A stretch of 64,000 nucleotides of DNA from Hyphomicrobiales bacterium (GTDB lineage: Bacteria > Pseudomonadota > Alphaproteobacteria > Rhizobiales > JAJFHB01), in NCBI GenBank assembly GCA_021775755.1, contig JAJFHE010000032.1, positions 1 through 64,000 on the forward strand, in the 5' to 3' direction. Both the position numbers and the translations under genes were made by a program. Under the pieces are notes generated by a model, which was not told where the DNA came from, made no database searches, and saw only the letters and a program-made list of their open reading frames with translations. Below, piece by piece: positions 3,119 to 20,349 of this stretch (positions are counted from its first letter, which is position 1; each line of letters starts with the position of its first letter).

Positions 3119-6007
3119 ATGTCAGTTTGGCTCCTAGCACGCCATATATTGGTCTACACGCTCAGTGTTTCCGTGGTCATTGCCACAACGCCCATTCCGA
3201 GCCGTGCGCAATCCGGCTCGGCTTCCGACACACCGGCGTGCAGCCTGACCGGCAGCTGGCAGAGTACATTCGGGCCGCTGACCTTCAAGGAGCACCCCGT
3301 CGACAGCTCCACCGGCGTGATTGCGTCTTCACCGGTCGAGGACGGCGATGGCGGCCCTGAAATCGGCATAGACATCACAGACGATGCACTTGCCTTCAGC
3401 GCGACTTATGAAACGCCGGACGGCGTGGGGCGGATCGATGGCATTCGTTCTGGCCTGACCCTGAACGCCAGATGGTACCGGCCGCCGACGTTCAAAGACG
3501 GCGATGCGGGCGGGCTCGTGCTTACACTCGATGCCGGCTGCACGTCGCTGGCCGGACAGACGACAACGCAAGGTGGAGACGCGCAAGCTGAATGGTCGGC
3601 GGAACGCGTGCAAGTTGCCGAAATCGAAAGCCCCGATCTTGCGCAAACGATGGAGCTTGATGCCGGCTCGCTCACCGGGGTGCGCGATCAGCTTCAGGCG
3701 CTGGTTTCCGGCGCCGATGTATCGCGGTTTGATGTCGCGGCGCTGGCGACCCGGTTGAGCGGCGTGGAGGAAACCTACAACCACGTGCGCGATGGCTACG
3801 GCAAGGCGGTTTATGATGGCGTCTTGAGAGGTGCGAGAGGAGTGCTTCTCACAGGTGCCGGCAACGCCGTGGATCGTGCACTTTTGCTGTCGAACCTGTT
3901 GCGGGCGCAAGGCATCGAAACGCAATTTGCCCGTGCGCAGCTCTCGGACGAACAGGCGCTAGCGGTTGTGGCGGCATCTTCGTTCGCCCTGCCGGCGGCC
4001 AGTGACGCAGCGCCGGCCGGCATCGAGAACTTCGCCGCCCAGCCCGATGGCGATGCTACTTGGCTTGCCGGCCAGGAGTTTCAAGCGGATACGGCACGGG
4101 TCGTCGATGCAATTATCGACGCATCGCCTGCCGATCTTCCGGCCTGGCAGGCCGGAGCCCGGCTTGATGCGGCAAAGCAGGCCGCGGCGCAGCATGTGTG
4201 GGTCCGCGCCAGCGTGGACGGCGAGTGGGTCGATCTCGATCCGACGTATCCGGGCCTTGCGGCAGGTGAGACGATCGTGGAAGCGGAAACGGTTTCAGAC
4301 GCGTTGCCTGAGCAGGCGTATCACAGTCTCGAAATCAACGTCCGCATCGAACAACTCAAAGAAGGTGCGATTTCGGGGAGCGCGGTCGCGGTATGGGTCC
4401 TGAAACTGGCCGATATCATGGGAGCGGGCGCCCCGACACTTGCGTTGACGCTCCAGCCGGTCGATACGCCGCAAGACCCGGGCGCCGCGCTTCCTCTGGC
4501 GACATCCGGGCAGGCCGCGGCCGGCCGTCTTGACGCCCTGGCGAATTCCTCCACCGTTTTTCAGCCGATCCTGACGCTTTCAACCGGTGAAACCGAAGTC
4601 GGCAGACCGTTCGATCTCAATGGTAACGTCCTGCCGCCCGACGCGCTGTCAAGACTGACGATGCCGCTGGCCGGTGCGACTGGAGAGGCATTCGGCATCG
4701 CAACGGACGCGCTCGGCGGGCTGTTTGGCACACCGGCCGCACCCGAGCCGCCCGACGAAGGCGCGTTGACGGGGGTGTGGCTGGAAATCCACCAGGTCAG
4801 GCCGGATGGCACGCGACGTGTAAATGCGCGTGCGCTGGTGGACCGGATCGGTCCGGAACTGCGGGCGGCAGGCGGCGGTGCGGTACCGGAATTGACGCCG
4901 GCCGGTTCCGATGTGGTGTCAAAGCTGCTTTCGCTTCACCGAATTCAGGCGCTGTCGGGCCCGCTTTCACCCGAATTCATTGCCCTGCAGGCAGCCCGGC
5001 AGGCATTGGCCCGTATCAGCTCCGTTCTCGGCGTAGCCGCCCGGCCCACCGCAAGCGGTACGGTGAATGCCGCGGAGTTTACCGGCAACACCGGCGCGGC
5101 GTTTGAACTCGTGGGACTGGCGCAGGCCATGTATCAGGCGGTCGCGGAGCTGTCGGCGGCAACGGGCGTCATACCTTACCAAACCGGAGCGGCCGTCATT
5201 GCCGACCACCTGGCGTTCAGCCTGCAAAGCGACAGCGACGGGCGCATGGTCTACACCGTCGATGTCATGACCACAGGGGTGTCGGGCTTCACGCCGCAAG
5301 CTGAAAGCGGGGATGCCATTTCGCGGTTTCTGACGTCGGTTGGCGTTTACCTGACGGGACTGGAAGCGCGCATGGATCCGCCCATGCCTCGGGGGGTGTG
5401 CTTCAACTGTCCGCCTCCATCGAAAACGGGTTCATTTGCGGCGACCCTGGCGCAAATGGATGATGACGGTGCGATGATCTGGCTGACCGGCGATGCGGCT
5501 TTGCCCGATGAACTGTCCGGCGAACTCAGCGCATCGGAGCGCCTGTCGGTTGCCGGGCTTCGTACTGAACGCGACATGATCACGTTCTCAGGCGGGGCCG
5601 CAGAACATGGCGCGGTTGTTTGGACAATAGACAGGGAAACCGGCGTGCCTGTTGGCAGGGACCTTGGTGGTTATGGCAGCACGCAGTCGGAATACGCCAT
5701 CATCCTTGCCAAGACGATTGCCTACATGCTGCCGCTGTTCGCCGGGTTCTTCGGAGGCCTGGCGAGTTGCTACAAGTTCGGCAGCAGCGATTTGCCAAGC
5801 GGGTCATGTTTGTTGTGCGCCGCCTTAGTGGGGCTCGCATTCGAACTGGCATTCGTTGCCTGGTGGATCGCCCCGGCGGCGGGCGCCACGTTTGCGGTAG
5901 GATCCGCTGAGGGGTTTTACGCAATGTTGTTCGGCTGGAGTTCCGGGTCGGGGTTCGGCGTGGCCTCGGGCGGGCTTGCCGTTTGTGCCTACGCCGGTCA
6001 GCAGTGA
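3119..6007 (+). CDS. Large exported transglutaminase-like protein lacking the catalytic Cys
   Basis: The ATG at 3119 follows an AGGAGG site and starts a Sec signal peptide (residues 1 to about 32, ending IPSRAQ). The 962-residue product then has a small beta-rich domain (about 37-160) and a transglutaminase/protease-core fold: the stretch GNAVDRALLLSNLLRAQGI around residue 250, then His359 in HVWVRA and Asp374 in DLDPT. In active members the position of Ala250 is a cysteine, so this copy keeps His and Asp but not the nucleophile. The last 100 residues are very hydrophobic and glycine-rich, with two to three likely membrane segments. It converges, 15 bases apart, on a VWA-protein gene. A binding or scaffold role at the envelope is inference. 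Confidence 0.6.
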   Translation: MSVWLLARHILVYTLSVSVVIATTPIPSRAQSGSASDTPACSLTGSWQSTFGPLTFKEHPVDSSTGVIASSPVEDGDGGPEIGIDITDDALAFSATYETPDGVGRIDGIRSGLTLNARWYRPPTFKDGDAGGLVLTLDAGCTSLAGQTTTQGGDAQAEWSAERVQVAEIESPDLAQTMELDAGSLTGVRDQLQALVSGADVSRFDVAALATRLSGVEETYNHVRDGYGKAVYDGVLRGARGVLLTGAGNAVDRALLLSNLLRAQGIETQFARAQLSDEQALAVVAASSFALPAASDAAPAGIENFAAQPDGDATWLAGQEFQADTARVVDAIIDASPADLPAWQAGARLDAAKQAAAQHVWVRASVDGEWVDLDPTYPGLAAGETIVEAETVSDALPEQAYHSLEINVRIEQLKEGAISGSAVAVWVLKLADIMGAGAPTLALTLQPVDTPQDPGAALPLATSGQAAAGRLDALANSSTVFQPILTLSTGETEVGRPFDLNGNVLPPDALSRLTMPLAGATGEAFGIATDALGGLFGTPAAPEPPDEGALTGVWLEIHQVRPDGTRRVNARALVDRIGPELRAAGGGAVPELTPAGSDVVSKLLSLHRIQALSGPLSPEFIALQAARQALARISSVLGVAARPTASGTVNAAEFTGNTGAAFELVGLAQAMYQAVAELSAATGVIPYQTGAAVIADHLAFSLQSDSDGRMVYTVDVMTTGVSGFTPQAESGDAISRFLTSVGVYLTGLEARMDPPMPRGVCFNCPPPSKTGSFAATLAQMDDDGAMIWLTGDAALPDELSGELSASERLSVAGLRTERDMITFSGGAAEHGAVVWTIDRETGVPVGRDLGGYGSTQSEYAIILAKTIAYMLPLFAGFFGGLASCYKFGSSDLPSGSCLLCAALVGLAFELAFVAWWIAPAAGATFAVGSAEGFYAMLFGWSSGSGFGVASGGLAVCAYAGQQ

Positions 6008-6022
6008 CGTGCGGTATTGGGT

Positions 6023-7513
6023 TTATCGAGACGGCTTGAACACCACCGCGCCATTTTCCCGCGAGAGCTGAAGAACGGTCTGTCCGCCGGCGAGGACCTC
6101 GACTTCGCCCAGCGCGGCGCCGGCCAGGTTGTCGATCTCGACCGCATAGGTGCCGGGGGGAATTTCAACCGGCGCCGCCCCGACCGAACCCTGCGCGACA
6201 ATCTCGCCAATCGCATTCCGTACAGTGAATGTGAGCTTGAGTGCCTGTTCGATGGCGCTCCGCAGACCCTCGGTGTCGCGTGCATCGAGATAACTACCAC
6301 CGGCGGCGCCGGCGAGGTCTTCAAGAAACGCGCGGGTTGCGCTTTCGGTAATGTCGAAACCCACTACGTGAGCGCGAAAATCGATGCCTTTGGCCACGAG
6401 GGCCTGAACCACGGCGGGCGGATAGAGTTTATCGGTTGGCGCCGTCGCGCAACTCTCGATGCCGTCGCTGATCAGCACCACGAGCGTTGCGGCTCCAACG
6501 TCCTGCAGGTCTTCGCGGAGTGCCGCCAGCGAAAAACCGATCGGCGTTTGTCCGCGCGGAGAGATGCCGTCAAGTGCGGCGATTACGGCACCGCCGTTGC
6601 CGGGTGCCACGGGAACCACGAGCTCCGAGTCGCGGCAACTTTCGGCGGTGCGCTGGCGCGATACGCGGTGGCCGTAGACGCGCAATCCAACGGCGACATC
6701 GTCCGGCAAGGTGCCGATCGCGTCACGCAGCACATCGCCCGCAACTTCGGTCTTCGGCCGGCCATCGTCAACTCGGCCCCACATGGAATTCGATGCGTCG
6801 AGGATGAATTCAACGCGTGCGGCGCTGGCCAGCGCCGGGTCGTCCGCCTCAACGGAAATGAAACCCGGGCCGCTTGCGACCTGAACGGAACCAATGGCGC
6901 CGACCGCATCGATGTCGGCTCCCGGCCAGCTTGAGCCGCACGCCGTTCGCAGGTCCTGAAGGCGCACGAAAGAATACTGGGTGCTCGGCTGCGCGTGGCC
7001 AGCGATGTCGACGATGGCCGTCGCGCCCTTGATTTCACCGATGCCGATCCACTCGTTGCCGTGTTCGGATATCCAAAGATCCGTGCCTTCCACATCGCTG
7101 CCGATCTCGAACACATAAAGGTCCGGGCCATCGACATCGATCAGGGCATTATCGGTAAACCGCAACGTCAATGTGCCTCCGCATCCCAAAGTCACATAGT
7201 TCTGCGCAACGCTCGTGTTGGTGCTGACGGCAGGGTCCCAGTCGGGGGGGGCGAGAGACTTTTCCGGGAACCGAACAAGTTCAATCGGCTTCGGGTCGCC
7301 CATCTCGTAGGCAACGACTGCATCGGCGAAGGAAATGTCGCCCTGCGGAAAGCAGACCTCGACGCCGCGGTCTTCGTAGCAAGTGGTCTGTGCCGACGCG
7401 CCCGGTGGTGCGAACAGCGAGAGCGCGGCCCAGAGCAGGACCAGAAGCGGGGTGCCTCCCGGAATGAGCGTTCTTTTCCCGGTGATCCTGATCATCAGCC
7501 AATCCTGGTTCAT
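6023..7513 (-). CDS. Exported von Willebrand factor A domain protein
   Basis: This 496-residue protein has a signal peptide (cut near residue 42, ASAQ), an N-terminal beta-rich domain with a cysteine pair (C45/C54) that includes the stretch LYVFEIGSDVEGTDLWIS, then a VWA domain from about residue 232. The metal-dependent adhesion site DxSxS is intact: Asp239, Ser241 and Ser243 in DASNSMWG. A C-terminal carboxypeptidase-regulatory-like beta domain (about 425-496) follows. It probably binds a protein partner in the periplasm. A second ATG at 7495, with AGGA 8 bases before it, is an equally good start. The convergent transglutaminase-like gene could supply a partner, but that is a guess. Confidence 0.75.
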   Translation of the reverse strand: MNQDWLMIRITGKRTLIPGGTPLLVLLWAALSLFAPPGASAQTTCYEDRGVEVCFPQGDISFADAVVAYEMGDPKPIELVRFPEKSLAPPDWDPAVSTNTSVAQNYVTLGCGGTLTLRFTDNALIDVDGPDLYVFEIGSDVEGTDLWISEHGNEWIGIGEIKGATAIVDIAGHAQPSTQYSFVRLQDLRTACGSSWPGADIDAVGAIGSVQVASGPGFISVEADDPALASAARVEFILDASNSMWGRVDDGRPKTEVAGDVLRDAIGTLPDDVAVGLRVYGHRVSRQRTAESCRDSELVVPVAPGNGGAVIAALDGISPRGQTPIGFSLAALREDLQDVGAATLVVLISDGIESCATAPTDKLYPPAVVQALVAKGIDFRAHVVGFDITESATRAFLEDLAGAAGGSYLDARDTEGLRSAIEQALKLTFTVRNAIGEIVAQGSVGAAPVEIPPGTYAVEIDNLAGAALGEVEVLAGGQTVLQLSRENGAVVFKPSR

Positions 7514-7548: not shown

Positions 7549-8103
7549 TCAAGTCTGCGGCGACCCGATCTCCGCAGTCAATTCTTCAATCGCATCGGCG
7601 AGATGCACCTCTGCAATGGCGTAGTCGCCACGCTCGACGCGCATGTGGTGCGCGAGCCGGAGGACGTCTGAGTGGGTGAAGCCTGCGGGTGGATCGAACT
7701 TGTAGCAGGCCAGCTCGATCAGCTGGCCCAGCGGTTCGCGGAAATAGATTGAATCCATGAACCCGCGGTCGATTTCGCCGGTATTGGCGATGTCGTGCTC
7801 TTTGAGGCGCTCGACCGCGAGATTGTAAGTGGCGCGCGATACGGCGAAGGCGAGGTGGTGCAGATTGCCCGGCTCGTTCGGGTTCTTGGTGGCGTCGGGC
7901 TTGCGGTCCTCGCGGGTGAAGATGGTGATGAGCCGTCCATCGCCCGGGTCGAAATAGAGGTGATGGACATCGCGGTCGTCGAGATTGGGCTGTTCGAACA
8001 CGAATGGCATGCCGAGCACGCCCTCCCAGAAGTCCATCGATGTCTGGCGGTCGGCTCCATTGAGCGTGATGTGGTGGACACCTTGTGACTGCAGTTTGCG
8101 CAT
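7549..8103 (-). CDS. VOC (glyoxalase/bleomycin-resistance fold) family protein
   Basis: The 184-residue product shows paired beta-alpha-beta-beta-beta modules of the vicinal oxygen chelate family. Likely metal ligands are a His in GVHHITLNG near residue 11, a His in NLHHLAF near 82 and a Glu in LIELACY near 130. The family includes glyoxalases and ring-cleaving dioxygenases; the substrate here is not evident. It was probably once the gene directly downstream of caiD, because a second copy of its first 15 codons remains next to caiD at 10456-10502. Its first 47 coding bases lie in a 169-bp repeat. Confidence 0.8.
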   Translation of the reverse strand: MRKLQSQGVHHITLNGADRQTSMDFWEGVLGMPFVFEQPNLDDRDVHHLYFDPGDGRLITIFTREDRKPDATKNPNEPGNLHHLAFAVSRATYNLAVERLKEHDIANTGEIDRGFMDSIYFREPLGQLIELACYKFDPPAGFTHSDVLRLAHHMRVERGDYAIAEVHLADAIEELTAEIGSPQT

Positions 8104-8225
8104 GGCTTTCCTCCCGGTGCCGCGACAGGAGCGGCTAACCGGTTATAGCGCTGCGGCAGCGTTGGTGTCTAACGGCCCTTCCAGACCGGGTCGCGGTCTT
8201 CCGCGAAGGACTTCGGGCCTTCCTC
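8057..8225. repeat. 169-bp direct repeat, copy A (left of the ATPase-nuclease insertion)
   Basis: Bases 8057-8225 match 10456-10624 with, by eye, five differences in 169. The repeat is made of the 5' end of the VOC gene, the short VOC/caiD intergenic spacer and the last 18 codons of the caiD-like gene. The two copies bracket about 2.2 kb holding one gene. Four of the five differences are silent in the affected reading frames, so the copies look like functional alleles that diverged before being joined, not a fresh duplication. Confidence 0.9.
8169..8225 (-). pseudogene. Remnant of the 3' end of the caiD-like gene
   Basis: Read on the minus strand this encodes EEGPKSFAEDRDPVWKGR and a stop, the same C-terminus as the intact caiD-like gene at 10568-11350 except for one Gly-to-Asp change. 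Its other codon differences are synonymous. It lies directly upstream of the intact VOC gene and is a left-over from the duplication that accompanied the insertion. Confidence 0.85.
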
Positions 8226-10455
8226 GGAGCGGACACTTTGTATGGCGACTTGACTGAAGTTGGACTGCATGCCGCCAATATTGATTGCTATTGAGTTCGC
8301 GATGCATTTCTAACAAGCATTCCGATATCCTGCACTGTTGTTCTGCATTGAATAGACGTCACTTGTTCGAGGGGTCGTCCGCGTGTTCAAACTCTTTTTG
8401 AGATGGATAACGGTCGGGAGGATTTTTATCTCTAGAAACACTTTGATCTAACCGATCCGCATGGATTATCGAAGACTTCAATTGAGAAATCCTCTCTTCA
8501 ATTTCTTCCATCGACACTTCAATCTGTAAACGTTGTTGAACAAAATGAAGTCTGCCCTCGCACTCACGAACTAGCTCCGCCCATGTTTTTACCCATACTT
8601 TGTAGTTCAATTTATCAAGGAAGAGTCCCACCGGTCGATCACTTTGGGTTACACGCTCTTTGACGGCGTCATCATACTCACCAGTAACAAGAAAAAAGCT
8701 CCAGTTGGTTGACGTGTTTTTGAAATCTGGTTGGCTTCTTATGGCATTCACATAGTCTTCGAGTTGGTCCAATTCTCTTCGCGTGACAACTAGTGATGGT
8801 CGCTTTAGTTCCAGCAACAAGAATTCCCTGCGTTCTCCGTCAGGATGGGGAATTACCCGCCCGAGGAACGAGTCTACGCGGCCGACTTTTCCATCTGCCT
8901 TGCGAATTTTTCTCCGTGTGCTTTGGCTTGCTAGCTCCCTTGATACCCGCTCCATCACCTTGGTAAGGCCCGACTCAGCAAGTGTGATGTGAAAGTGTTC
9001 TCCGAAGATCCAAGTGTTGTCCCGTATGAGTGCGTCGAGTTCGCCTCGCTCCTTGATGCTTCGGCGATGTTTCGGGTCGAAGACCATTCCCTTCAAGACT
9101 TCGAGGACCACAACGCGATCAGCGATCAGGCTAGACGCGGCAATAATGCTCGCCAGTCCGGTTCTGTTCAAAAGGCCAGCAAACTCGTCCTGCCGCACTT
9201 TCGGTAGATTGAAAACCGCGTGCAAAATGTTGGAGACCGATTCGGGGTTGTGTCTGACAGCTTCACGCAAAAGGCTAAGAGTGATTCGTTTTTGCGGATT
9301 ATCTGAACGTTTGAAGTCGCGAGAGTACGAGGTAACCGCGTGCGTCGCTATGTCAAACACCTGCCTTTCGCGGCGCTCGACTTCGTCTTTCGGGTCTCCC
9401 TCGTATGGATAAACACCCGCTGCTTTAAGTTCATCGATAAGGTGCCCGCTGCGCTCAGCTTGACGCATTCGAAAGTAGCCGCCGAGCGTATCTCGGACAT
9501 GATTTACGACTTGTGCGAAATCTGGATCGTTGAGCTCATCGAAATCTAACAGGTTCGCATCAGCAATTTCTTGAAAAAACGGAGAGTATGCATACGCGGA
9601 GAAATTGAAATCTGGTGCGGTCACATTTGCTGCTTGTGATCCTAATACAACACCGCTTTCGCCGCCGAAATGTAGCTTGCGGCTGCCAACATTTGAATTC
9701 CACTCGATTACCTTGATAACGAGATCGTTCACAGTGCGGCCGGAGCAAATGACGGTTTGAACAGGAAACTCATGCGAATGCACAATCGTTTCAGTCGGCT
9801 CGATCTGTCTTTTGTCATAGGAAATTGTGATGCCGGGATACTGCATAACGTACGGCGCAAATATGGCACTGAACTCCGAGCGGGCTTCCTCAGCGACGAG
9901 CCAGTCAAAAGTCTCCTTCAATGATGAAAGCTGAACCACCGTACCGATGGCTCCGTCATCCACAGATTGCGCATCCGAAACGTCTGCCGTTTTCAATGAT
10001 CCTGCAGATATTTTTATAGTCAGTTTCGCTCTTTGTTCACCATCGTGATAGCATGTGTCCCATTGTGCGTTGTTGGCGAGTGAGAAAAATCTAAGTCGAC
10101 CTTGCCCCTCCTTGCCGTGCATAGCCCGTTGTGCGTTTGTGCGGGTTGTTTTTCGTTTCCATGAAGCGCCGACATTTTCAAAATCTCGCCTAGCGTGCTG
10201 TCCAGAAATACCTTCACCGTTGTCACGGACAACTATTGCTTCAATTCCTCCCAACCCGTTCTTCTCAAATTCAACATCGACTTTGTCTGCATCCGCGTCG
10301 AGCGCGTTCCATACAAACTCCGCAAGTGCCTTGATAGGGTCGCGCGTGCTGGCAATCTTCTCTAGATGGTCCTGCTGTGCTTTTAGCGTCAGTATTGTCA
10401 TTGTTCTGGTGTAGTCTCAGTGCATACCCCGTGGCAAGAGTGTGATAATTGACCG
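8226..10455. mobile_element. Single-gene insertion between VOC and caiD-like genes
   Basis: This 2.2-kb segment, visibly richer in A+T than its neighbours, lies between the two copies of a 169-bp repeat and carries one gene on the minus strand. No transposase, integrase or terminal inverted repeat is seen. The 133 bases left of the gene (8226-8358) are its 3' flank; 54 bases right of it (10402-10455) must hold its promoter. Long flanking homology without a recombinase fits uptake by homologous recombination, for example single-crossover integration of a circle. That mechanism is inference. Confidence 0.7.
8359..10401 (-). CDS. GHKL ATPase fused to a Shedu-like PD-(D/E)xK nuclease domain
   Basis: The 680-residue protein opens with a GHKL (Hsp90/MutL/MORC-type) ATPase: N-box Glu28 and Asn32 in EFVWNALDADA, ATP-lid motif DNGEGIS at 60-66 and the glycine loop GKEGQGR at 96-102. 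After a linker, residues about 450-620 resemble the DUF4263/Shedu nuclease domain: LDALIRDNTWIFGEHFHIT (456-474), then Asp510, the ExK motif Glu531-Leu-Lys533 in LLLELKRP and Gln546 in LDQLEDY. Such a nuclease coupled to an ATP-driven clamp suggests single-gene anti-phage defence. The insertion context and AT-richer composition point to horizontal gain. The function has not been shown here and is inferred from the domains. Confidence 0.75.
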   Translation of the reverse strand: MTILTLKAQQDHLEKIASTRDPIKALAEFVWNALDADADKVDVEFEKNGLGGIEAIVVRDNGEGISGQHARRDFENVGASWKRKTTRTNAQRAMHGKEGQGRLRFFSLANNAQWDTCYHDGEQRAKLTIKISAGSLKTADVSDAQSVDDGAIGTVVQLSSLKETFDWLVAEEARSEFSAIFAPYVMQYPGITISYDKRQIEPTETIVHSHEFPVQTVICSGRTVNDLVIKVIEWNSNVGSRKLHFGGESGVVLGSQAANVTAPDFNFSAYAYSPFFQEIADANLLDFDELNDPDFAQVVNHVRDTLGGYFRMRQAERSGHLIDELKAAGVYPYEGDPKDEVERRERQVFDIATHAVTSYSRDFKRSDNPQKRITLSLLREAVRHNPESVSNILHAVFNLPKVRQDEFAGLLNRTGLASIIAASSLIADRVVVLEVLKGMVFDPKHRRSIKERGELDALIRDNTWIFGEHFHITLAESGLTKVMERVSRELASQSTRRKIRKADGKVGRVDSFLGRVIPHPDGERREFLLLELKRPSLVVTRRELDQLEDYVNAIRSQPDFKNTSTNWSFFLVTGEYDDAVKERVTQSDRPVGLFLDKLNYKVWVKTWAELVRECEGRLHFVQQRLQIEVSMEEIEERISQLKSSIIHADRLDQSVSRDKNPPDRYPSQKEFEHADDPSNK

Positions 10456-10502
10456 CCATTGAGTGTGATGTGGTGGACACCTTGTGACTGCAGTTTGCGC
10501 AT
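10456..10502 (-). pseudogene. Remnant of the 5' end of the VOC gene
   Basis: On the minus strand this reads MRKLQSQGVHHITLN, identical to the start of the intact VOC protein whose gene begins at 8103, and then breaks off at the edge of the insertion. It keeps the original start codon and upstream spacer, so it shows the order before insertion: the caiD-like gene followed by VOC on the same strand. Confidence 0.85.
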
Positions 10503-10624
10503 GGCTTTCCTCCCGGTGCCGCGACAGGAGCGGCTAACCGGTTATAGCGCTGCGGCAGCGTTGGTGTCTAACGACCCTTCCAGACCGGGTCGCGGCCTTC
10601 GGCGAAAGACTTCGGGCCTTCCTC
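10456..10624. repeat. 169-bp direct repeat, copy B (right of the insertion)
   Basis: This is the second copy of the repeat at 8057-8225. It supplies the true 3' end of the caiD-like gene and a truncated 5' end of the VOC gene. Because each neighbour keeps one complete copy, the insertion did not destroy either gene, but it did separate a likely two-gene transcription unit. Confidence 0.9.
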
Positions 10625-11350
10625 CGCGTCTTCGGATTTGAGGAGTGTCGTGTAGGTTTCGCAGGCGCCGGACTTGGTCCAGGCATAGCATTCCGGGATC
10701 GTCATGTTGGCGGTCTGGCGGACGATGTCCTTGATCGCGGCATGCACGAGGGGCGGGCCGGAGGCAATGGCTTCGGCGATTTCGCGGGTGCGCTCCATGA
10801 GTTTGTCGGCGGGCACGACTTCATTGACGATGCCCCAGCCGTGCGCTTCTTCCGCGCTCATCCGCCGGCCGGTCAGCAGCATCTCCATGGCGATGTGATA
10901 GGGAATGCGCCGCGGCAGGCGGTAGGTTGCGGCATCGGCGATGATGCCGACATGAATTTCAGCCAGGAACACCTCGACGTGTTCCGCCGCGACGATCATG
11001 TCGCAGCACAGTGCGAGCTCGAACCCGCCGCCGACGGCCATGCCGTTGAGGGCGGCGATCACCGGCTTGTTGAGATCGTGCAGTTCGGTGAGACCGGCAA
11101 ACCCGCCGGGTCCATAGTCTTCATCGAACCCGGCACCGTCGGCTGCCGCCTTCAGGTCCCAGCCGGCGGAGAAGAAGCGTTCGCCACCGCCGGTGATGAT
11201 GGCGCAGCGCAGCTCCGGGTCGTCGCGATAGGCGCAGAAGATCTCGCCGAGTTCGCGGCTCGTTGCATTGTCGATGGCATTGGCCTTGGGTCGGTCGAGA
11301 ACGACTTCAAGCACGCGGCCATTGCGGGTGGTGTGAACGGATTGTGTCAT
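10568..11350 (-). CDS. caiD: Carnitinyl-CoA dehydratase-like enoyl-CoA hydratase
   Basis: This is a 260-residue crotonase-fold protein very like E. coli CaiD, which hydrates crotonobetainyl-CoA to carnitinyl-CoA. The likeness runs end to end: the DRPKANAID start, FSAGWDLKAAA, GPGGFAGLTE, GGGFELAL and the RDPVWKGR end. Glu111 and Glu131 sit at the same numbers as the catalytic glutamates of CaiD. The ATG at 11350 is preferred because it has an AAGGAA site; a longer frame upstream reads into non-coding-looking sequence. Nearby carnitine genes support the role. The last 18 codons lie in the 169-bp repeat. Confidence 0.8.
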   Translation of the reverse strand: MTQSVHTTRNGRVLEVVLDRPKANAIDNATSRELGEIFCAYRDDPELRCAIITGGGERFFSAGWDLKAAADGAGFDEDYGPGGFAGLTELHDLNKPVIAALNGMAVGGGFELALCCDMIVAAEHVEVFLAEIHVGIIADAATYRLPRRIPYHIAMEMLLTGRRMSAEEAHGWGIVNEVVPADKLMERTREIAEAIASGPPLVHAAIKDIVRQTANMTIPECYAWTKSGACETYTTLLKSEDAEEGPKSFAEGRDPVWKGR

Positions 11351-11650
11351 CGGCTGTTCCTTCAGGTTGAGTACTCGGAGACGCGACCCGGTGAAGCTAC
11401 CCTCATGATTGCCAGATTGGCGCTCGATTTTCGACGTTCTCAAGCAAAACCCGACAGGCGGGTTCGCTTTGCATGCAAATATCAGAGCGGGGCCGTCACT
11501 TGTTCTTTTGTTGCCGCTCATGGAGAAAACTAAAGCGGCGCACGTACCCGCGGCAGCTATTCAGCAAACGTGCGTTTGAACGATCACGCTAGGTCGACTG
11601 CGACGCGGGTTTGCGACGTTGCGCTCTTTGGGGGTTGCGGCCGGTATGAA
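11351..11650. other. Intergenic region upstream of the caiD-like gene
   Basis: Three hundred bases without a convincing gene separate the caiD-like start from the end of the HxlR-type regulator gene. It should contain the caiD promoter. I see no clear terminator, palindrome or RNA gene. Confidence 0.4.
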
Positions 11651-12034
11651 TCAGGCGCGCGCATCATACGACTTGCGCGCGGCGACGACTTGATCGAAAT
11701 TTTCTGACGCCCAGCTCACGATCGGTTTCAGTACTTCAACCAGATCCTTCCCCGGTCCGGTCAGTTCGTAGGAAACCGCTACGGGCGGGCCCGGATCAAC
11801 GGTGCGGGTCAGGTAGCCGTCTCGTTCCAGAGCACGCAGGTTCTCGGTCAGTACGCGCTGAGTGATGTCGCCAACCGTCCTTTTCACTGCAGAAAATCGC
11901 AAAGGCCCGTCTTCTAGGCTCAGAAGGATCAGAGATTGCCATTTGCCGAACACGTTGCTCAGTACGTTCCGTATAGGGCAGAGCTTGCCCTCCTCGACAG
12001 TCAGGGCAGTTACTTGAAGCATACTTTGTTCCAT
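11651..12034 (-). CDS. HxlR-family transcriptional regulator
   Basis: The 127-residue winged-helix protein has the HxlR hallmarks: the CPIRNVLSNVFGKWQSLILLSL start, RFSAVKRTVGDITQRVLTENLRALERDGYLTR recognition region, and YELTGPGKDL wing. Cys19 is in the place of the conserved cysteine that senses quinones, aldehydes or thiol stress in HypR, QorR and YodB-type members. It is divergent from a SnoaL-like and an NmrA-like gene, the usual target arrangement, and probably represses them and itself. Met5 is a possible alternative start. Confidence 0.88.
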   Translation of the reverse strand: MEQSMLQVTALTVEEGKLCPIRNVLSNVFGKWQSLILLSLEDGPLRFSAVKRTVGDITQRVLTENLRALERDGYLTRTVDPGPPVAVSYELTGPGKDLVEVLKPIVSWASENFDQVVAARKSYDARA

Positions 12035-12038
12035 ATTA

Positions 12039-12064
12039 GTGCGTAATTGACACTTGGTGCGTAA
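12039..12064. promoter_or_regulatory. Candidate HxlR-type operator: direct repeat GTGCGTAA
   Basis: In the 82-base gap between the divergent HxlR and SnoaL-like genes the octamer GTGCGTAA occurs at 12039-12046 and again at 12057-12064, 18 bases apart, or nearly two helical turns. That spacing suits a dimeric winged-helix repressor bound on one DNA face. The site abuts the regulator's own start, which fits autorepression. The assignment is inferred from position. Confidence 0.5.
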
Positions 12065-12116
12065 ATAATACCTATGTCTCCACGATCAAACAACCTCTTC
12101 AAACGGAGACATCCAA

Positions 12117-12947
12117 ATGAAACTGGCAACACTCACGTTTGCGGTTGGCCTGGCCGCGTCCACCGCACTGGCTGCTGAACACCCAAAGGCTCTCGCTACC
12201 GCCGCGCTGAACGCAATTTTCGTTGATTTCGATGTATCAGCGGCAACGAAATTGCTGACTGATGACTACATACAGCACAATCCGAGTGTGCCTACCGGCG
12301 CCGCTCCCGTTATCGGCTTTATCCCTGCGCTGAAGGAAAGCGGCATTGAACTGACAACCTACCGGCTGATCGCGGAGGGCGACTTGGTCGTCGCTCATAA
12401 TCAGTATGAGAACGCCCAGGCTTTTGGCGCTCAGACACTTGTTGCCTTCGACGTGTTCAGGATTGAAGACGGTCGGGTGGCCGAGCACTGGGACAACCTC
12501 GAACCGCTGGCAGCGCCGAATCCGTCAGGCAGAACCCAACTGGACGGTCCAACAGAAATTATCGATCTCGACAAGACGGCCGAGAACAAGGCACTTGTCA
12601 TCGAGCTTGTCGAAACAGTTCTGATGAACGGGGAAGTCGACCGGATCACCGACTTCGTTTCAACAGAGACATACTTGCAGCACAACACAGGCATCGCTGA
12701 CGGTCTGGACGGCCTCGGAGCTGCGCTTGCAGCGATGGCCGAAAACGGTGTGGCCATGGTCTATTCCGAACTGCATGTCGTCGTTGCCGAGGGTAATTTC
12801 GTCTTCACCGCCTCAAGCGGCGTGTTGGGCGACGCGCCCACTGCCTTTTTCGACCTTTTTCGCGTTGAAGACGGCAAGGTCGTCGAGCACTGGGATGTCA
12901 TTTCAACCATTCCAGAGGAGATGGCCCACGAAAATGGAAAGTTCTGA
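12117..12947 (+). CDS. Exported protein with two SnoaL-like (NTF2-fold) domains
   Basis: The 276-residue product has a signal peptide (MKLATLTFAVGLAASTALAA) and two tandem SnoaL-like repeats, about residues 25-130 and 155-265. Each has the ATKLLTDDYIQHNP / ITDFVSTETYLQHN start and the FDVFRIEDGRVAEHWD / FDLFRVEDGKVVEHWD end. Single-domain relatives are polyketide-cyclase-like or stress proteins, often next to HxlR regulators. The gene is divergent from the HxlR gene and followed by an NmrA-like reductase gene, probably co-transcribed. The substrate is unknown. Confidence 0.8.
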   Translation: MKLATLTFAVGLAASTALAAEHPKALATAALNAIFVDFDVSAATKLLTDDYIQHNPSVPTGAAPVIGFIPALKESGIELTTYRLIAEGDLVVAHNQYENAQAFGAQTLVAFDVFRIEDGRVAEHWDNLEPLAAPNPSGRTQLDGPTEIIDLDKTAENKALVIELVETVLMNGEVDRITDFVSTETYLQHNTGIADGLDGLGAALAAMAENGVAMVYSELHVVVAEGNFVFTASSGVLGDAPTAFFDLFRVEDGKVVEHWDVISTIPEEMAHENGKF

Positions 12948-13018
12948 ATCCATTCTGCGGACCGAAGCAATAGGTTCCGTGGACGGTTCTGCAATCAGCA
13001 GTGAACAGGAAGTGCAAG

Positions 13019-13858
13019 ATGCCTCATCCGAAAATTGCCATCACCGGTGCCACAGGCGCACTCGGAGGCCGGATCGCACGGCTACTTGACGATCGGGAAA
13101 TTCCAACCCGCTTGATCGTTCGAGATCCGGCGAAGGCTCCGTCACTGAAACATGCAACGCCGACGATATCCTCCTATGCCGACCGCGAGTCGCTCGTGGC
13201 CGCCGTGAGGGACATCGACACCGTGTTCTTCGTCTCCGGTGGTGAGGCCGCTGACCGGCTGGATCAGCATAAGACGGCTGTTGACGCCTTCGCCGAAGCC
13301 GGGGTGCAGCGCATCGTGTACACATCGTTTGTAAACTGTGCACCGAAATCGACGTTCACATTCGCCCGCGACCACTATCATACCGAACAGTACATGACTT
13401 TCCGGGACATCCCGTTTGCGGCACTGCGCAACAATTTCTACGCCGATCTGGTGCCGCTGCTCGTGACAGACGGTGAGCTACGTGGCCCCGCAGGGTCCGG
13501 GCGGTTCGCACCGGTTTCGCGTGATGATATCGCGGAAGTCGCCGCCGCCATGTTGACAGACCCGTCAGGACCAACAGGCCTGTTCGACGTCACCGGGCCG
13601 GAACTCATGACAATGGAACAGGCTGCTTCCCAGCTTACGTCGGTCTCCGGCCAAACGGTCATCTTCCGGAATGAGACACTGGAAGAAGCCTATGCCTCGC
13701 GGGCCGGGTTCGGCGCGCCACAGTTCGAAGTCGATGGCTGGGTCACGAGCTACGCCGGCATTGCCGCAGGCGAGTTTGAGGTCCTGAGCGACACAGTAGA
13801 GCGTTTCACCGGTCATTCACCGACAGCATTCAGGGATTTTCTGAATTCCCGCCGGTGA
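13019..13858 (+). CDS. NmrA-like NAD(P)-binding protein, QOR2 type
   Basis: This 279-residue Rossmann protein begins MPHPKIAITGATGALGGRIA; GATGALGG is the nucleotide loop, and VFFVSGGEAADRL plus VYTSFVNCAP follow the NmrA/QOR2 (NADPH-quinone reductase 2) pattern. AGGAAG lies 7 bases before the ATG at 13019, better than the start 18 bases upstream. It follows the SnoaL-like gene by 71 bases and probably belongs to the HxlR-controlled unit. HxlR-type regulators with such reductases commonly respond to quinones or electrophiles; that role is inferred here. Confidence 0.8.
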   Translation: MPHPKIAITGATGALGGRIARLLDDREIPTRLIVRDPAKAPSLKHATPTISSYADRESLVAAVRDIDTVFFVSGGEAADRLDQHKTAVDAFAEAGVQRIVYTSFVNCAPKSTFTFARDHYHTEQYMTFRDIPFAALRNNFYADLVPLLVTDGELRGPAGSGRFAPVSRDDIAEVAAAMLTDPSGPTGLFDVTGPELMTMEQAASQLTSVSGQTVIFRNETLEEAYASRAGFGAPQFEVDGWVTSYAGIAAGEFEVLSDTVERFTGHSPTAFRDFLNSRR

Positions 13859-13885: not shown

Positions 13886-15979
13886 TTAGCGACTATTTTT
13901 CTTGCGATCTGAAAGGGCGATCAGTGCGTCGGCGGCAACGGCGCCGGACCCATTCGGCCGCACGATAAGGGGATTGATGTCGATTTCCTCAATTCGGTCG
14001 GTGTTCTCTTCAACGAAACGGCACACGGCTTCGATAGCGTCGATGGCCGCGTCGGTGTCGCCTGCGGGCTTGCCGCGCCAGCCCTCAAGCAGGGGGAAAC
14101 ACTGCAACGAACGCAATGCGGTTTCAATCTCGGCGCGTGATGCGGGCAGAAGAACGATGCGGCTGTCGCGCAGGAGTTCGACCATTGTGCCGCCCGCACC
14201 GATCACGATGTGGGGTCCGAATTGCGGATCGCGAACGGCACCAATCAGGAGTTCGGCGATCCCGTCACGCACCATTTCCTCAACCAGAATCCGGTCCGAA
14301 ATCGCCGCTAACTTGTGCGCCGCCGCCTCGGCGTCTTGCTCATTGGCGAGGTTCAACAGTACCGCACCTGCTTCGGACTTGTGCGCAAGCGTTTCGCTCA
14401 CGGCCTTCATGACCACCGGATAGCCGATGCCGTCCGCTGCCCTGACCGCCTCCGGTACGGCGACGATTGCGCCGTTGGGTGTCGTTAGGCCCGCCGCGCG
14501 CAGCAGCTCCTTGCTATCCCATTCGTTGAGGGTTGCCACATCGCCCGCCAGCGCCGGCGCATCGCCAAGCGGTTCGGACGTTCCTTTGGCGCGTGCCGTG
14601 CCGATGGAGGCGGCCGCGGCGACGGCGGTCAGGCCTTCCTCGACGCCGCTGAAGGTCACGATGCCCTCGTCGCGCAGCCAGCGCGCAACGTCCTCGGGCA
14701 TGCCCTCCTGCAGCGAGGAGAGCACGGCGGCCCGGGCGTCATTGTCGCGGGCGCTTGCGATGAATTCCTCCAGCATGACGTACCACGAGCTCACGTCGCA
14801 GCGCTCGAGCGTTGGAAAGTCGAGCACCAGAATGGCGAGATCGAAACCGCCCGACAGCATGGCGGAGAATGTCGCGCGCGCTTCCTCGCGGTGACCCCAG
14901 ATGAAGGTGTGATAGTCGAGCGGATTGGCGATATCGACAAAGTCGTTGAGCGTCGCGCGCAGGCGTGCGGCGTGAGCGGGCTCAAGGTCCGGAAAGACGA
15001 GGCCGTAGGCTTCCGCCCGGTCGGCCATAAGCGAGGCCTCGCCGCCGGAACAACTGAGCGAGGCGATGCGGTTGCCGGGCAGGGGGCCGGTGAGGTCTAG
15101 TAGTTTCAGCGTTTCGATAAAGGCCGGGACGGAGTGGACCCGAGCGACGCCAAAGCGTTCAAACAGCGCGTCATAGAGCCGGTCGGAACCGGACAGCGTA
15201 GATGTGTGGCTGACGGTGGCGCGCGCGCCTTTCTCCGAGCGCCCGGCTTTGAGGGCGACAATTGGTTTGCCCTGCTCGAGGGCACCAAGTGCGAGGCGGG
15301 AGAATCGGGCGATGTCGTCGATCCCCTCGACATGCAGGCCGATTGCGGTGACACGTTCGTCTTCAAGCAGCGCCTCGATGCAGTCGTTGATCGTGATCTG
15401 CGCCTGATTGCCGAGAGTAAGCAGATAGGCAAGCGGCATGGCGCGGCGCTGCATTGTGAAGTTGAGACCCATATTGCCGCTTTGCGAAATGATCGCGACG
15501 CCACGTTCGCAAGGGGCCGCGCCGTGATTGTCGGGCCACAGCGCGGCGCGCTCGATGAAGTTGAGCGTGCCGTAACAGTTCGGACCGATGATCGGCATGT
15601 CTCCGGCTGCCGCCACTAACTCGCTCTGCAGGAAGCGGCCTTCGTCTCCGGTTTCGGCAAAGCCCGAGGCGAAGCACACAGCGCCGCCCGCACCCATCTC
15701 GACAAGCAGTCTGACGGCCTCAATCGTCGGTTCGCGGGGAATGGCGATAAACGCGGCATCGGGCGCGTACGGCAGGTCTTCAAGGCGGGCATAGGCCTGG
15801 TGGCCGTGAACCTCATCGCGCGAGCGGCTGACTGGCCAAATTTCGCCCGCAAATCCCAGGAGCGTGCATTGCTGCACGACGCGGGCGGCCTCGGTGCCGC
15901 CGATGACGGCAATCGACTTCGGCGTAAGCAGGCGTCGCAGCCGGGCGGTCTTGGTGTTTGCGGGGGCGGACATGTTCAT
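13886..15979 (-). CDS. Acyl-CoA synthetase (ADP-forming), single-chain with ATP-grasp
   Basis: The 697-residue protein has the fused layout of NDP-forming acetyl-CoA synthetases: CoA-binding Rossmann domain (about 5-130), two succinyl-CoA-synthetase-like domains (about 145-450, with GPNCYGTLNF and SQSGNMGLNF; the active His region is near SHTSTLSG) and a C-terminal ATP-grasp domain (about 480-690). Starts further upstream overlap the preceding gene, so the ATG at 15979 (or 15973) is taken. It follows the acyl-CoA dehydrogenase by about 20 bases on the same strand. In this carnitine cluster it may make the CoA ester of gamma-butyrobetaine or another betaine; that is inference. Confidence 0.82.
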   Translation of the reverse strand: MNMSAPANTKTARLRRLLTPKSIAVIGGTEAARVVQQCTLLGFAGEIWPVSRSRDEVHGHQAYARLEDLPYAPDAAFIAIPREPTIEAVRLLVEMGAGGAVCFASGFAETGDEGRFLQSELVAAAGDMPIIGPNCYGTLNFIERAALWPDNHGAAPCERGVAIISQSGNMGLNFTMQRRAMPLAYLLTLGNQAQITINDCIEALLEDERVTAIGLHVEGIDDIARFSRLALGALEQGKPIVALKAGRSEKGARATVSHTSTLSGSDRLYDALFERFGVARVHSVPAFIETLKLLDLTGPLPGNRIASLSCSGGEASLMADRAEAYGLVFPDLEPAHAARLRATLNDFVDIANPLDYHTFIWGHREEARATFSAMLSGGFDLAILVLDFPTLERCDVSSWYVMLEEFIASARDNDARAAVLSSLQEGMPEDVARWLRDEGIVTFSGVEEGLTAVAAAASIGTARAKGTSEPLGDAPALAGDVATLNEWDSKELLRAAGLTTPNGAIVAVPEAVRAADGIGYPVVMKAVSETLAHKSEAGAVLLNLANEQDAEAAAHKLAAISDRILVEEMVRDGIAELLIGAVRDPQFGPHIVIGAGGTMVELLRDSRIVLLPASRAEIETALRSLQCFPLLEGWRGKPAGDTDAAIDAIEAVCRFVEENTDRIEEIDINPLIVRPNGSGAVAADALIALSDRKKNSR

Positions 15980-15998
15980 GCCTGTCGCGGGGGTTGGC

Positions 15999-17162
15999 TC
16001 AGCCGCCGAGCGGGCGGAGCAGGGCGCGCGAAATGATGTGCCGCTGGATTTCGCTTGTGCCTTCCCAGATGCGCTCGACACGGTGATCGCGCCAGATGCG
16101 CTCCAGCGGGATCTCGTCCATCAGCCCCATGCCGCCGTGGATCTGGATCGCTTCGTCAGCCACCATGGCCAGCATTTCAGTCGCGTGCAGTTTGGCCATC
16201 GCGGCATCGGGGTCGGTCATCGTGCCTTGATCGTTCTTCCATGCGGCATTGAGCAGCAAAAGGTCAGATGCCCTCAATTGCAGCGCCATGTCGGCAAGCT
16301 TGAAGGAAACGCCCTGAAACTTCGATATCTGCTGGCCGAACTGCTGGCGGCTGGCTGACCAGTCAAGCGCCAGATCGAGCGCGCGCCCGGCACGGCCGAT
16401 ACAGGTGGCGGCAACCTGAAGCCGGGTCGCGGAGAGCCAGGTGTTGGCAACCTCAAAACCCTGATCGACTTCTCCCAGAACCTGCGTCTGCGGCACGCGG
16501 CAGTCATCGAACTCCAGAATGCTGTTCTGATAGCCGCGGTGCGAGACGTTGTTGTAGCCCTCGCGGATCATGTAGCCCGGCGTGCCGGTATCGATGAGGA
16601 AGGCGGTGATCTTCTTCTTGCGGCCGCGCGGCGTGTCCTCTTCCCCGGACGCTGCGAACAAGATGACGAAATCGGAGAGGTCGGCATGGCTGATGAAGTG
16701 CTTGGTGCCGTTGATGACCCAGTCGCCTCCATCGCGTTTTGCCGTCGTCTTCATGGAGCGCACATCCGAACCGGCGCCCGGTTCGGTCATGGCGAGACAG
16801 TCGATCTTGTCGCCTTTGACGACGGGATAAAGATAGTGCTTCGCCTGTTCGGGTGTGCAGGCCATGAGAATGTTCGAGGGGCGCGCGACGCAGGTATAGT
16901 GCAACGCGTAGTTCGCCCGACCGAGTTCCTTTTCAAGCAGTACCCACGACACCGTGTCGAGCCCCGCGCCGCCGGCCTCTTCCGGCATGTTTGCGGCGTA
17001 GAGCCCGGTATCGAGCGCCTTGGCCTTGATCTCGTCGATCAGATCGCGGCGCAGTTCGCCGGTGCGCTCGACTTCTGCTTCGTGCGGGTAAAGCTCGTTC
17101 TCGACGAAGGCACGCGCCATGTCGACCAGCATGGTCTGCACTTCCGTCAGGGCGAAATCCAT
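15999..17162 (-). CDS. Acyl-CoA dehydrogenase
   Basis: This 387-residue flavoprotein has the full acyl-CoA dehydrogenase pattern: helical N-terminus, CLAMTEPGAGSDV FAD loop near residue 125, ISHADLSDF, RQQFGQQISKFQ, and IHGGMGLMDEIPLERIWRD. Glu367 in WEGTSEIQR matches the catalytic base of medium-chain enzymes. It sits between an SDR gene and an ADP-forming acyl-CoA synthetase gene on one strand. In a carnitine setting it could convert gamma-butyrobetainyl-CoA to crotonobetainyl-CoA, the substrate of the CaiD-like enzyme. The sequence alone does not prove that specificity. Confidence 0.85.
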   Translation of the reverse strand: MDFALTEVQTMLVDMARAFVENELYPHEAEVERTGELRRDLIDEIKAKALDTGLYAANMPEEAGGAGLDTVSWVLLEKELGRANYALHYTCVARPSNILMACTPEQAKHYLYPVVKGDKIDCLAMTEPGAGSDVRSMKTTAKRDGGDWVINGTKHFISHADLSDFVILFAASGEEDTPRGRKKKITAFLIDTGTPGYMIREGYNNVSHRGYQNSILEFDDCRVPQTQVLGEVDQGFEVANTWLSATRLQVAATCIGRAGRALDLALDWSASRQQFGQQISKFQGVSFKLADMALQLRASDLLLLNAAWKNDQGTMTDPDAAMAKLHATEMLAMVADEAIQIHGGMGLMDEIPLERIWRDHRVERIWEGTSEIQRHIISRALLRPLGG

Positions 17163-17180
17163 CGGGCTATTCCTTAAAGT

Positions 17181-17948
17181 TCACAAACGTTCCGTGTGGC
17201 CGTCGACGGCAAGCGCCTGGCCGGTGATCTTTTTGGCCGCGGGCGAGGCCAGAAACAAAACGGTGTCGGCCATATCGTCGGCGGTGACGAAGCTGCGCAG
17301 CGACACCGAACCGGTCACATCCGCACGAACATCTCCCTGACTGCGCCCGGTCTTGGCCGCTTCCGCTTCAATCACCCGGTCCATGCGGTCGCCTTCTACC
17401 GGGCCCGGGCAAATGCAGTTTGCGCGAATGCCGAAAGGTCCCAGTTCCATGGCTTGCGTTTTGGTGAAGCCGATGACGCCCCATTTCGCCGTGGCGTAAG
17501 GGGCGCGGCGCGGGAAGCCGACAAGGCCTGCGGTCGACGAAAAGTTGACGATGAGGCCACTACCCTGGGCTTTCATCGGCGGAATGGCGCATTGCGAACA
17601 CAGAAACTGACCGTCGAGGTTGATCGAGAGACAGCGGCGCCACTCTTCAAAGTCCATATCTTCGACGTTGGCGGTCGGGCCTGCGGTGCCGGCGCAGTTG
17701 ACGAGAATATCGAGCCCGCCGAGGTCGGCGAGCGCCGCATCGAACCATGCACCGACCCTTGCCTGATCGGTAACGTCGAGGGGGGTGCCGGTCACATTCG
17801 GATTGCCGGCGAACGCGCGATCCAATCCGTCCGCATCGATGTCGCTTGCGTGCACGCGCGCGCCCTGTTCGGCAAACCGTTCCGCGATGCGCTGGCCGAT
17901 GCCCCCGCCGGCGGCGGTGATCATCACCCGTTGCGGACTGTCATACAT
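17181..17948 (-). CDS. SDR-family NAD(P)-dependent dehydrogenase
   Basis: The 255-residue short-chain dehydrogenase shows the coenzyme loop (ITAAGGGIGQRIA, with Ala-Ala in place of the usual Thr-Gly), NCAG at about residue 85, the catalytic Ser in FSST, and YATAK as the YxxxK motif near residue 150. Asp38 in ASDID after the second strand suggests NAD. It lies 9 bases from the carnitine dehydrogenase gene in the same operon. Possible roles are a 3-hydroxybutyrate or stereospecific carnitine dehydrogenase; neither can be decided from sequence. Confidence 0.85.
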   Translation of the reverse strand: MYDSPQRVMITAAGGGIGQRIAERFAEQGARVHASDIDADGLDRAFAGNPNVTGTPLDVTDQARVGAWFDAALADLGGLDILVNCAGTAGPTANVEDMDFEEWRRCLSINLDGQFLCSQCAIPPMKAQGSGLIVNFSSTAGLVGFPRRAPYATAKWGVIGFTKTQAMELGPFGIRANCICPGPVEGDRMDRVIEAEAAKTGRSQGDVRADVTGSVSLRSFVTADDMADTVLFLASPAAKKITGQALAVDGHTERL

Positions 17949-17957
17949 GGCGGCCTC

Positions 17958-19445: not shown

Positions 19446-19461
19446 CGGAGGTCTCCGCCGC

Positions 19462-20349
19462 TCAGCGTTTCTTGAGGCTGAGGATTTCGCGGGCGTCGTC
19501 GGGGCTGGCAACGGCCGAGCCAAGCGTCTCAATGACGGTTACGGCTTTCTCGGTAAGCGTGCCGTTCGACGCATAGACGCCTTTTTCCAGATAGAGATTG
19601 TCTTCCAGTCCGACCCGCACATGGCCGCCGAGCAGCATCGCCTGGGCGACCATCGGGAACTGAAAGCGGCCGATGCCGAAGCCCGCCCATACCGCGTTGT
19701 CGGGCAACTGGCTCACCATATAGCCCATGGTTTGCGGGTTGACCGGGGCGCCCCACGGAATACCAAGGCACAACTGGAACATCGGCGGCTCGTCGATCAG
19801 TTCCTCTGAGCACATCTGCTTGGCGAACCAGAGATTGCCTGAATCGAAGATCTCCATCTCCGGCTTGACGCCATAGCTCCGGATCAGTTTGGCCTGAGTG
19901 CGCAACTGGTTCGGCGTTTGCACGACGATCGTGTCGCCATCGCCGAAATTGAGCGAGCCGCAGTCGAGCGTGCAGATTTCCGGACGCAACTCCTCGACAT
20001 GAAGCAGCCGCTCCACGGGGCCGACGAGGTCCGTTTCGGGACCGAAACTTCCCGGCTCCTCGCCTTTGCCAATTTCGACATCGCCGCCCATGCCGGCGGT
20101 CAGGTTAATGACAACCTCGGTATTCTTGGCGCGGATGCGCTCAACCACTTCGCGGTAGAGATTGACATCGCGCGAGCCTTTGCCGGTTTCCGGGTTGCGC
20201 ACGTGGCAGTGGACGATGGATGCGCCGGCGCTCGCCGCCTCAAGCGCTGAGTTGGCGATCTGCTCCGGTGTGACGGGAATGGCGGGGTGTTTGTCGACAG
20301 TGTCGCCGGCGCCGGTGATCGCGCAGGTGATGATGACTTTCGGGTTCAT
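19462..20349 (-). CDS. cdhC: Beta-keto acid cleavage enzyme (BKACE, DUF849), probable dehydrocarnitine cleavage
   Basis: The 295-residue TIM-barrel protein has the BKACE zinc motif His47-x-His49 in IVHCHVRNP, plus [22 protein letters not shown] and [14 protein letters not shown], which carries the conserved Arg and Glu. Family members condense a beta-keto acid with acetyl-CoA to give acetoacetate and a new acyl-CoA. Next to carnitine dehydrogenase the substrate should be 3-dehydrocarnitine, yielding betainyl-CoA. The ATG at 20349 follows GGAGGAAA. It is the first gene of the operon and divergent from the CdhR-like regulator gene. Confidence 0.85.

Follow-up and report, generated by a model that had tools for sequence, protein, structure and literature searches.

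A one-gene GHKL ATPase-nuclease cassette between 169-bp direct repeats in an acyl-CoA operon of a Hyphomicrobiales bacterium

The first 64,000 nucleotides of contig JAJFHE010000032.1 of a Hyphomicrobiales bacterium (assembly GCA_021775755.1; this whole 64-kb stretch is hereafter the window) carry, within an operon for acyl-CoA catabolism, a single foreign-looking gene for a GHKL ATPase with a putative nuclease motif, bracketed by long direct repeats. The two repeat copies, at 8057-8225 (copy A) and 10456-10624 (copy B), measure 169 bp and align at 97.0% identity with five mismatches and no gaps (E 3.5e-76); they form the sole direct repeat at E<=1e-3 within the window, and their longest identical block reaches 109 bp. 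Between them lies an insert of 2230 bp (8226-10455, minus strand), marked by a drop in GC content and present as a single copy in the genome assembly. It is occupied by one long open reading frame (ORF; 8359-10401, minus), on the same strand as both neighbours, and all further ORFs of at least 80 aa within the insert are antisense to it. With a GC content of 0.49 and a third-codon-position GC content of 0.50, against 0.61-0.64 and 0.72-0.79 in three neighbours, this gene bears out an earlier note, made from the sequence, which had described direct repeats with about five differences around one AT-richer gene.

Read on the minus strand, the repeat unit is made of the last 57 bp of a caiD-like gene, a 65-bp gap and the first 47 bp of a VOC gene, and two further bases match at the VOC-side edge (8055-8056 and 10454-10455). 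The VOC/glyoxalase-family gene (7549-8103, minus) is intact and starts in copy A, which by alignment holds the complete VOC 5' end, the gap and an orphan caiD 3' tail. The caiD-like enoyl-CoA hydratase/isomerase gene (ECH_1; 10568-11350, minus) is likewise intact and ends in copy B, which holds the complete caiD 3' end, the gap and an orphan VOC 5' end. Each neighbour has kept one full copy, as the earlier note stated. Elsewhere in the genome the unit is matched, at E<=1, only by a 53-bp stretch at 79% identity in a caiD paralogue. No transposase or integrase was found in the insert, whose one long ORF encodes the GHKL protein, nor any inverted repeat pairing the two insert ends, and the same note is upheld on both counts. 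A scan of 7900-11500 for promoters and terminators yielded nothing exceeding shuffled controls.

A relative shows the operon uninterrupted: in G002, a genome of the same family, the genes for 3-hydroxyacyl-CoA dehydrogenase (3' part), SDR, acyl-CoA dehydrogenase, CoA ligase, caiD and VOC follow one another unbroken, with 47 bp from the caiD stop to the VOC start and a contig end falling inside VOC. The remainder of the window operon (CoA ligase of the ATP-grasp type, acyl-CoA dehydrogenase, SDR and 3-hydroxyacyl-CoA dehydrogenase; 13886-19532, minus) is thus contiguous with caiD and VOC in that relative; in the window the operon is split at two points, by HxlR, SnoaL-like and NmrA-like genes (11651-13858) between CoA ligase and caiD, and by the GHKL gene between caiD and VOC. 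No flanking direct repeat was found at the former block. The GHKL gene is absent from all three other genomes of the family that were compared, none of which belongs to the same genus and two of which are just 61 and 71% complete. Since the caiD-VOC operon is unbroken in a same-family relative, the window state is an insertion, and the comparison supports the reading that one foreign-looking gene was inserted with both neighbours spared. Among 12 other order genomes matching both genes, drawn from two samples of 150 genomes each and with paralogues possible, only G002 has caiD and VOC side by side, so that the uninterrupted site rests on one genome. The comparison of the VOC-caiD junction with close relatives, proposed at the outset, has yielded an empty site at family-level rather than strain-level distance. 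Further along the window, at 27695-27959, a 33-bp inverted repeat pair (94%) flanks an imperfect palindrome of about 96 bp.

Two other origins of this arrangement were considered. The source genome is a 5.47-Mb draft in 77 contigs with 3.88% estimated contamination, and a short-read join at the 169-bp repeat could in principle have misplaced the cassette; this is scarcely credible, as the gene would have to lie between two repeat copies at any location, there are five differences between the copies, and the assembly contains neither the insert nor the full repeat anywhere else. A decayed integrase-borne island, with the repeats as its attachment sites, would agree with the site-specific integrases found close to two of the gene's plasmid relatives. 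It is nevertheless very improbable: the insert contains a single long ORF but no integrase, and usual attachment cores are far shorter than 169 bp spanning two genes.

The inserted gene encodes a protein of 680 aa with a GHKL ATPase domain at residues 24-133 and a predicted C-terminal nuclease motif (D510 / E531-L-K533). The window protein was aligned end to end with 11 homologues at 30-63% identity to it, and all 12 sequences match HATPase_c_3 (E 1.1e-15 for the window protein). The ATPase residues E28, N32, D35, D60, G62 and G64 are invariant throughout, as are D510, E531 and K533 of the nuclease, the latter being motif-level evidence; the assignment of all these residues to motifs is our own. 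A match to HSDR_N_2 at E<=1 was obtained for 11 of the 12 (best 8e-5), the exception being the window protein itself, whose C-terminal piece reaches E 0.16. Among curated NCBI families, the BbrUII/HgiDII restriction enzymes and MutL come closest, over the GHKL part only, and a sequence search of solved structures returned nothing but GHKL ATPases of the MutL/PMS and MORC types, again over that domain. Judged by these features, it is a standalone paraMORC3-type protein that combines a GHKL ATPase with a restriction-type nuclease motif. No restriction-modification genes are linked to it, the scanned neighbours being a VWA-like protein, a regulator and metabolic enzymes.

Two published families provide the frame for this assignment. 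In the text available of Iyer et al. 2008 (PMC2292703), paraMORC3 proteins have an N-terminal GHKL ATPase and a C-terminal restriction-fold nuclease, and a subset of them is standalone; the window protein shares this order, a C-terminal D-ExK, the standalone state and a patchy distribution. The published motif is E-D-ExK, whereas D-ExK was assigned here and the first E left unassigned. According to the accessible part of a second paper (PMC12137116), VcSduA of Vibrio cholerae is an anti-phage protein, classed by its authors as Shedu type I-D (GHKL-Shedu), in which mutation of the ATPase glutamate or of the nuclease lysine abolishes protection. The window protein has the same domain order, would likewise be a single-gene system and possesses both the ATPase glutamate and the nuclease ExK lysine; it differs in that Pfam detects no DUF4263 in the 12 homologues, and the two were compared by description, not by sequence. 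The name GHKL ATPase-Shedu nuclease, originally given to the gene, thus holds for the GHKL domain and the restriction-type motif, its Shedu part being a matter of architecture and motifs. Since neither Shedu nor DUF4263 models matched a single one of the 12 sequences, we file the protein as paraMORC3-type, Shedu-like.

The gene is rare among relatives and recurs in mobile settings. A homologue at E<=1e-30 was present in 6 of 396 other genomes sampled from the order and missing from the remaining 390. Homologues at 59-64% identity reside on three alphaproteobacterial (rhizobial) plasmids, in the neighbourhood of toxin-antitoxin, abortive-infection or integrase genes, and two from Parasphingorhabdus (57 and 56% identity) are AT-richer than their surroundings too (0.42 vs 0.58). 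More distant homologues (27-33% identity) were found on 25 viral contigs and in two Pasteurella phages. From these distributions the gene is patchy, probably mobile and a probable defence gene, whose product would sense and cut phage DNA, the GHKL domain gating the nuclease.

Flanking repeats were also considered as a trait of the gene family and rejected as such: with flanks of up to 6 kb examined (one locus, L061, being limited by a contig end), none of 12 bacterial and plasmid homologues has a flanking direct repeat better than E 0.03. Among the 25 viral contigs, 3 of which have too little flank on one side, a single one (L117) has a flanking repeat at E<=1e-3, of 52 bp and 98% identity. 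There, a terminator-like hairpin of 52 bp is duplicated (3398-3449 and 6981-7032) around the paraMORC3 homologue and two smaller ORFs; this border reads as a duplicated terminator hairpin, and the whole would be a cassette of phage cargo whose border has been duplicated.

The window repeat has counterparts in its own genome. Direct repeats of at least 50 bp and at least 80% identity, 300-15000 bp apart, were listed over 2.23 of the 5.47 Mb, leaving aside contig C38 (80 kb, with an internal repeat array), and 5 of the 19 resulting rows, the window included, read as duplicated gene tails. On contig C33 (G000:C33:70109-73461), the 3' end of uvrB, so named from a reading of the protein, is repeated over 89 bp at 87.6% around a 1012-aa gene with peptidoglycan-binding, TPR and caspase domains; 8 of its 11 differences are synonymous and 3 are not. 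On contig C5 (G000:C5:40314-43908), the tail of an MGMT-like gene, identified by eye and presumably of this kind by its PCHRVVG motif, is repeated over 69 bp at 89.9% (4 synonymous and 3 other differences) around three codirectional ORFs which, by eye and with no family search made, resemble nitronate monooxygenase, P450 and SDR. A third locus (G000:C15:4981-7415) repeats an ORF 3' end together with downstream DNA, 264 bp at 83.7%, around one 424-aa ORF. The fifth, the 63-bp tail of a HipA-like gene (by eye; G000:C47:7259-16222; 6 synonymous differences, 3 not), recurs 8.8 kb away; here the order is reversed and the intervening DNA has IS110-like and resolvase-like ORFs, and the case was set aside.

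The remaining four loci share one order, namely an intact gene, codirectional cargo and a duplicated tail, and no recombinase was recognised in the cargo of the three beyond the window. The uvrB repeat runs to 2 bp past the stop codon, and that of the MGMT-like gene breaks off within its own stop codon; such ends would be expected of tails derived from diverged orthologues with non-matching non-coding DNA. In the nearest usable relative for uvrB (G001), the downstream stretch is too short to judge whether the site is empty. Of 10 repeat rows in a 1.0-Mb control from Sinorhizobium meliloti pSymB, none had an intact gene-cargo-tail arrangement (by eye from ORFs), compared with four in 2.23 Mb here. 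Other repeats of this genome accompany genes of different kinds. At G000:C33:694-5610, a segment of 353-559 bp is present three times, its copies separated by small ORFs and differing in their 3' parts; by eye, this resembles a polymorphic-toxin cassette array. At G000:C5:101257-103482, a 53-bp piece of an EamA transporter gene (85%) recurs on the other side of a caspase-domain gene (Pfam), and at G000:C57:11553-12908 a caspase-like gene (by eye) lies near imperfect repeats.

The few differences between copies A and B carry some information on their origin. Those at 8065 (VOC), 8175, 8202 and 8208 (caiD) are all synonymous; the fifth, at 8197 (caiD), gives Asp in the orphan remnant and Gly in the functional copy, and the 65-bp gap has none. 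Under a null of drift after insertion, with free drift in the remnants and none but synonymous changes in the working ends, four synonymous differences out of five have P 0.065-0.113. When the window is pooled with the uvrB and MGMT-like tails, 16 of 23 differences are synonymous for a null expectation of 0.41-0.46 (P 0.005-0.021), the pool having been picked after the data were seen and without C47 and C15 (the frames of C15 break). As to polarity, judged from caiD of G001 and G002 and from seven VOC loci, the copy A state occurs in at least one relative at four of the five sites and the copy B state at one; one codon, Ala rather than Ser in the caiD relatives, was compared by its third base. 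At three synonymous sites the state unseen in the two caiD relatives belongs to the functional caiD copy rather than to the free remnant. Copy A resembling relatives and four differences in five being synonymous are both as expected if copy B arrived with the cassette and is now the working end of caiD.

On these grounds import of a diverged allele is mildly favoured over a target duplication that has since drifted. That duplication is the main rival: a staggered break with end capture would have produced copies identical at birth. It explains why the unit straddles caiD, the gap and VOC regardless of gene borders, a product of the same kind is described, in the part available of the literature, for Helicobacter restriction-modification genes, and its drift null is not rejected at the window locus alone; the mostly synonymous differences, their lack in the 65-bp gap and the unseen states of the functional caiD copy speak weakly against it. 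We regard it as a possibility of real weight, if less likely than not. The proposal that mostly synonymous differences betray a copy from another strain is accordingly plausible and weak at a single locus, and the alignment of both copies with relatives' alleles, also suggested in the earlier note, favours copy A as the resident one with relatives too distant to polarise well.

Taken together, we propose the horizontal acquisition of a one-gene cassette encoding an ATP-gated anti-phage nuclease, inserted by a recombinase-free, homology-guided event that duplicated the 169-bp junction, a scenario whose chances we consider evenly balanced. The target would be the caiD-VOC junction of the acyl-CoA catabolic operon, and the incoming DNA would have carried a slightly diverged caiD tail and VOC head, that is, copy B or most of it. 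Joining would have taken one homologous crossover, the incoming DNA being either a circle carrying the cassette and the junction (Campbell-type) or a linear fragment that was homologous at one end and joined illegitimately at the other. Copy B would now serve as the working end of caiD, copy A being the old junction. RecA should be able to loop the cassette out through the repeats and restore the intact operon, precise loss being expected because 109 bp of the repeat are perfect.

Several observations weigh against this proposal. The differences between the copies number only five, and drift after plain duplication is not rejected for this single locus (P 0.065-0.113). Polarity was taken from relatives about 70-85% identical, a distance at which third positions approach saturation. 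A simple linear donor, with the cassette following caiD, would not be expected to leave an orphan VOC 5' end directly before the cassette; a circle is required, or else a donor already carrying the duplication. For the protein, no DUF4263 appears among the Pfam matches of the 12 homologues at E<=1, and no Shedu-named PADLOC model does at E<=0.01, REase_II only, although both libraries presumably contain a Shedu/DUF4263 model. An AlphaFold model from three sequences is too poor to judge the S5 domain that paraMORC3 proteins have behind the GHKL domain (pLDDT 41.5, pTM 0.31), and with no Shedu match the nuclease fold is drawn only from the motif and published family descriptions. Finally, an enrichment in gene tails is not shown by the pSymB control, since 1.8 loci were expected there and none seen (P 0.17).

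The single-crossover (Campbell-like) gain first suggested for this locus fits the anatomy as one among several routes: circle, linear capture, secondary spread and staggered break all yield the same arrangement. Secondary spread, compatible with the other readings, would mean that a repeat-gene-repeat block of about 2.6 kb was made in another strain and arrived whole by double crossover in the flanks, transformation or gene-transfer-agent uptake being possible delivery routes. In its favour are the small size of the block, the conserved operon DNA on either side and an account of diverged copies that needs no new event; against it, the question of origin is only shifted, and no donor strain was found. 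We hold it doubtful, yet a close rival, because a Campbell circle is itself most simply derived from an earlier repeat-gene-repeat block.

Extended to the four gene-tail loci, the proposal would become that of a lineage repeatedly gaining single genes by one-sided, homology-guided capture at gene 3' ends, by one process, which we consider unlikely at present. In such a capture the incoming diverged tail would become the working end of the host gene, the cargo would follow codirectionally and the old tail would persist as a scar; each cassette would be able to pop out by RecA.

Insertions of a related form have been described. The text available of PMC1643837 cites Nobusato et al. 2000 for insertion with long target duplication in Helicobacter pylori, often linked to restriction-modification genes and possibly a new mobility mechanism; it was later reported for all restriction-modification types (as cited in PMC3031569, seen in part) and is also cited for such genes in the consulted portion of PMC4978471. 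The suggestion that this is an unusual route for a defence-type gene must therefore be corrected, the form being known for restriction-modification genes since 2000. Judging from those excerpts, both cases share a defence-type gene between long target repeats and a related genome with a single target. The present one differs in that the cargo is a standalone GHKL nuclease lacking a linked methylase, the relative is related at family level only, and the copies differ mostly synonymously. Homology-facilitated illegitimate recombination has been proposed for immunity arrays of the type VI secretion system (PMC5361080); as far as the available text goes, these resemble the window in their one-side homologous anchor, the added foreign gene and the old 3' piece displaced downstream, and differ in that here the duplicated piece also covers the start of the next gene. 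In the literature searched, 'Shedu' and 'target duplication' were not found together in any one paper.

As far as these searches show, the window case is a known insertion type with a new cargo type, and the recurrence of gene-tail scars in one genome may be the newer part. To our knowledge, the recombinase-free movement of single defence genes is poorly understood. The locus described here offers a compact footprint of it: one gene, intact neighbours, a 109-bp perfect repeat usable by RecA and a known uninterrupted state. Together with at least three similar gene-tail scars in the 2.23 Mb examined, this footprint makes a homology-guided route testable, and insertions with long target duplication would gain a Shedu-like single-gene nuclease as a further cargo.

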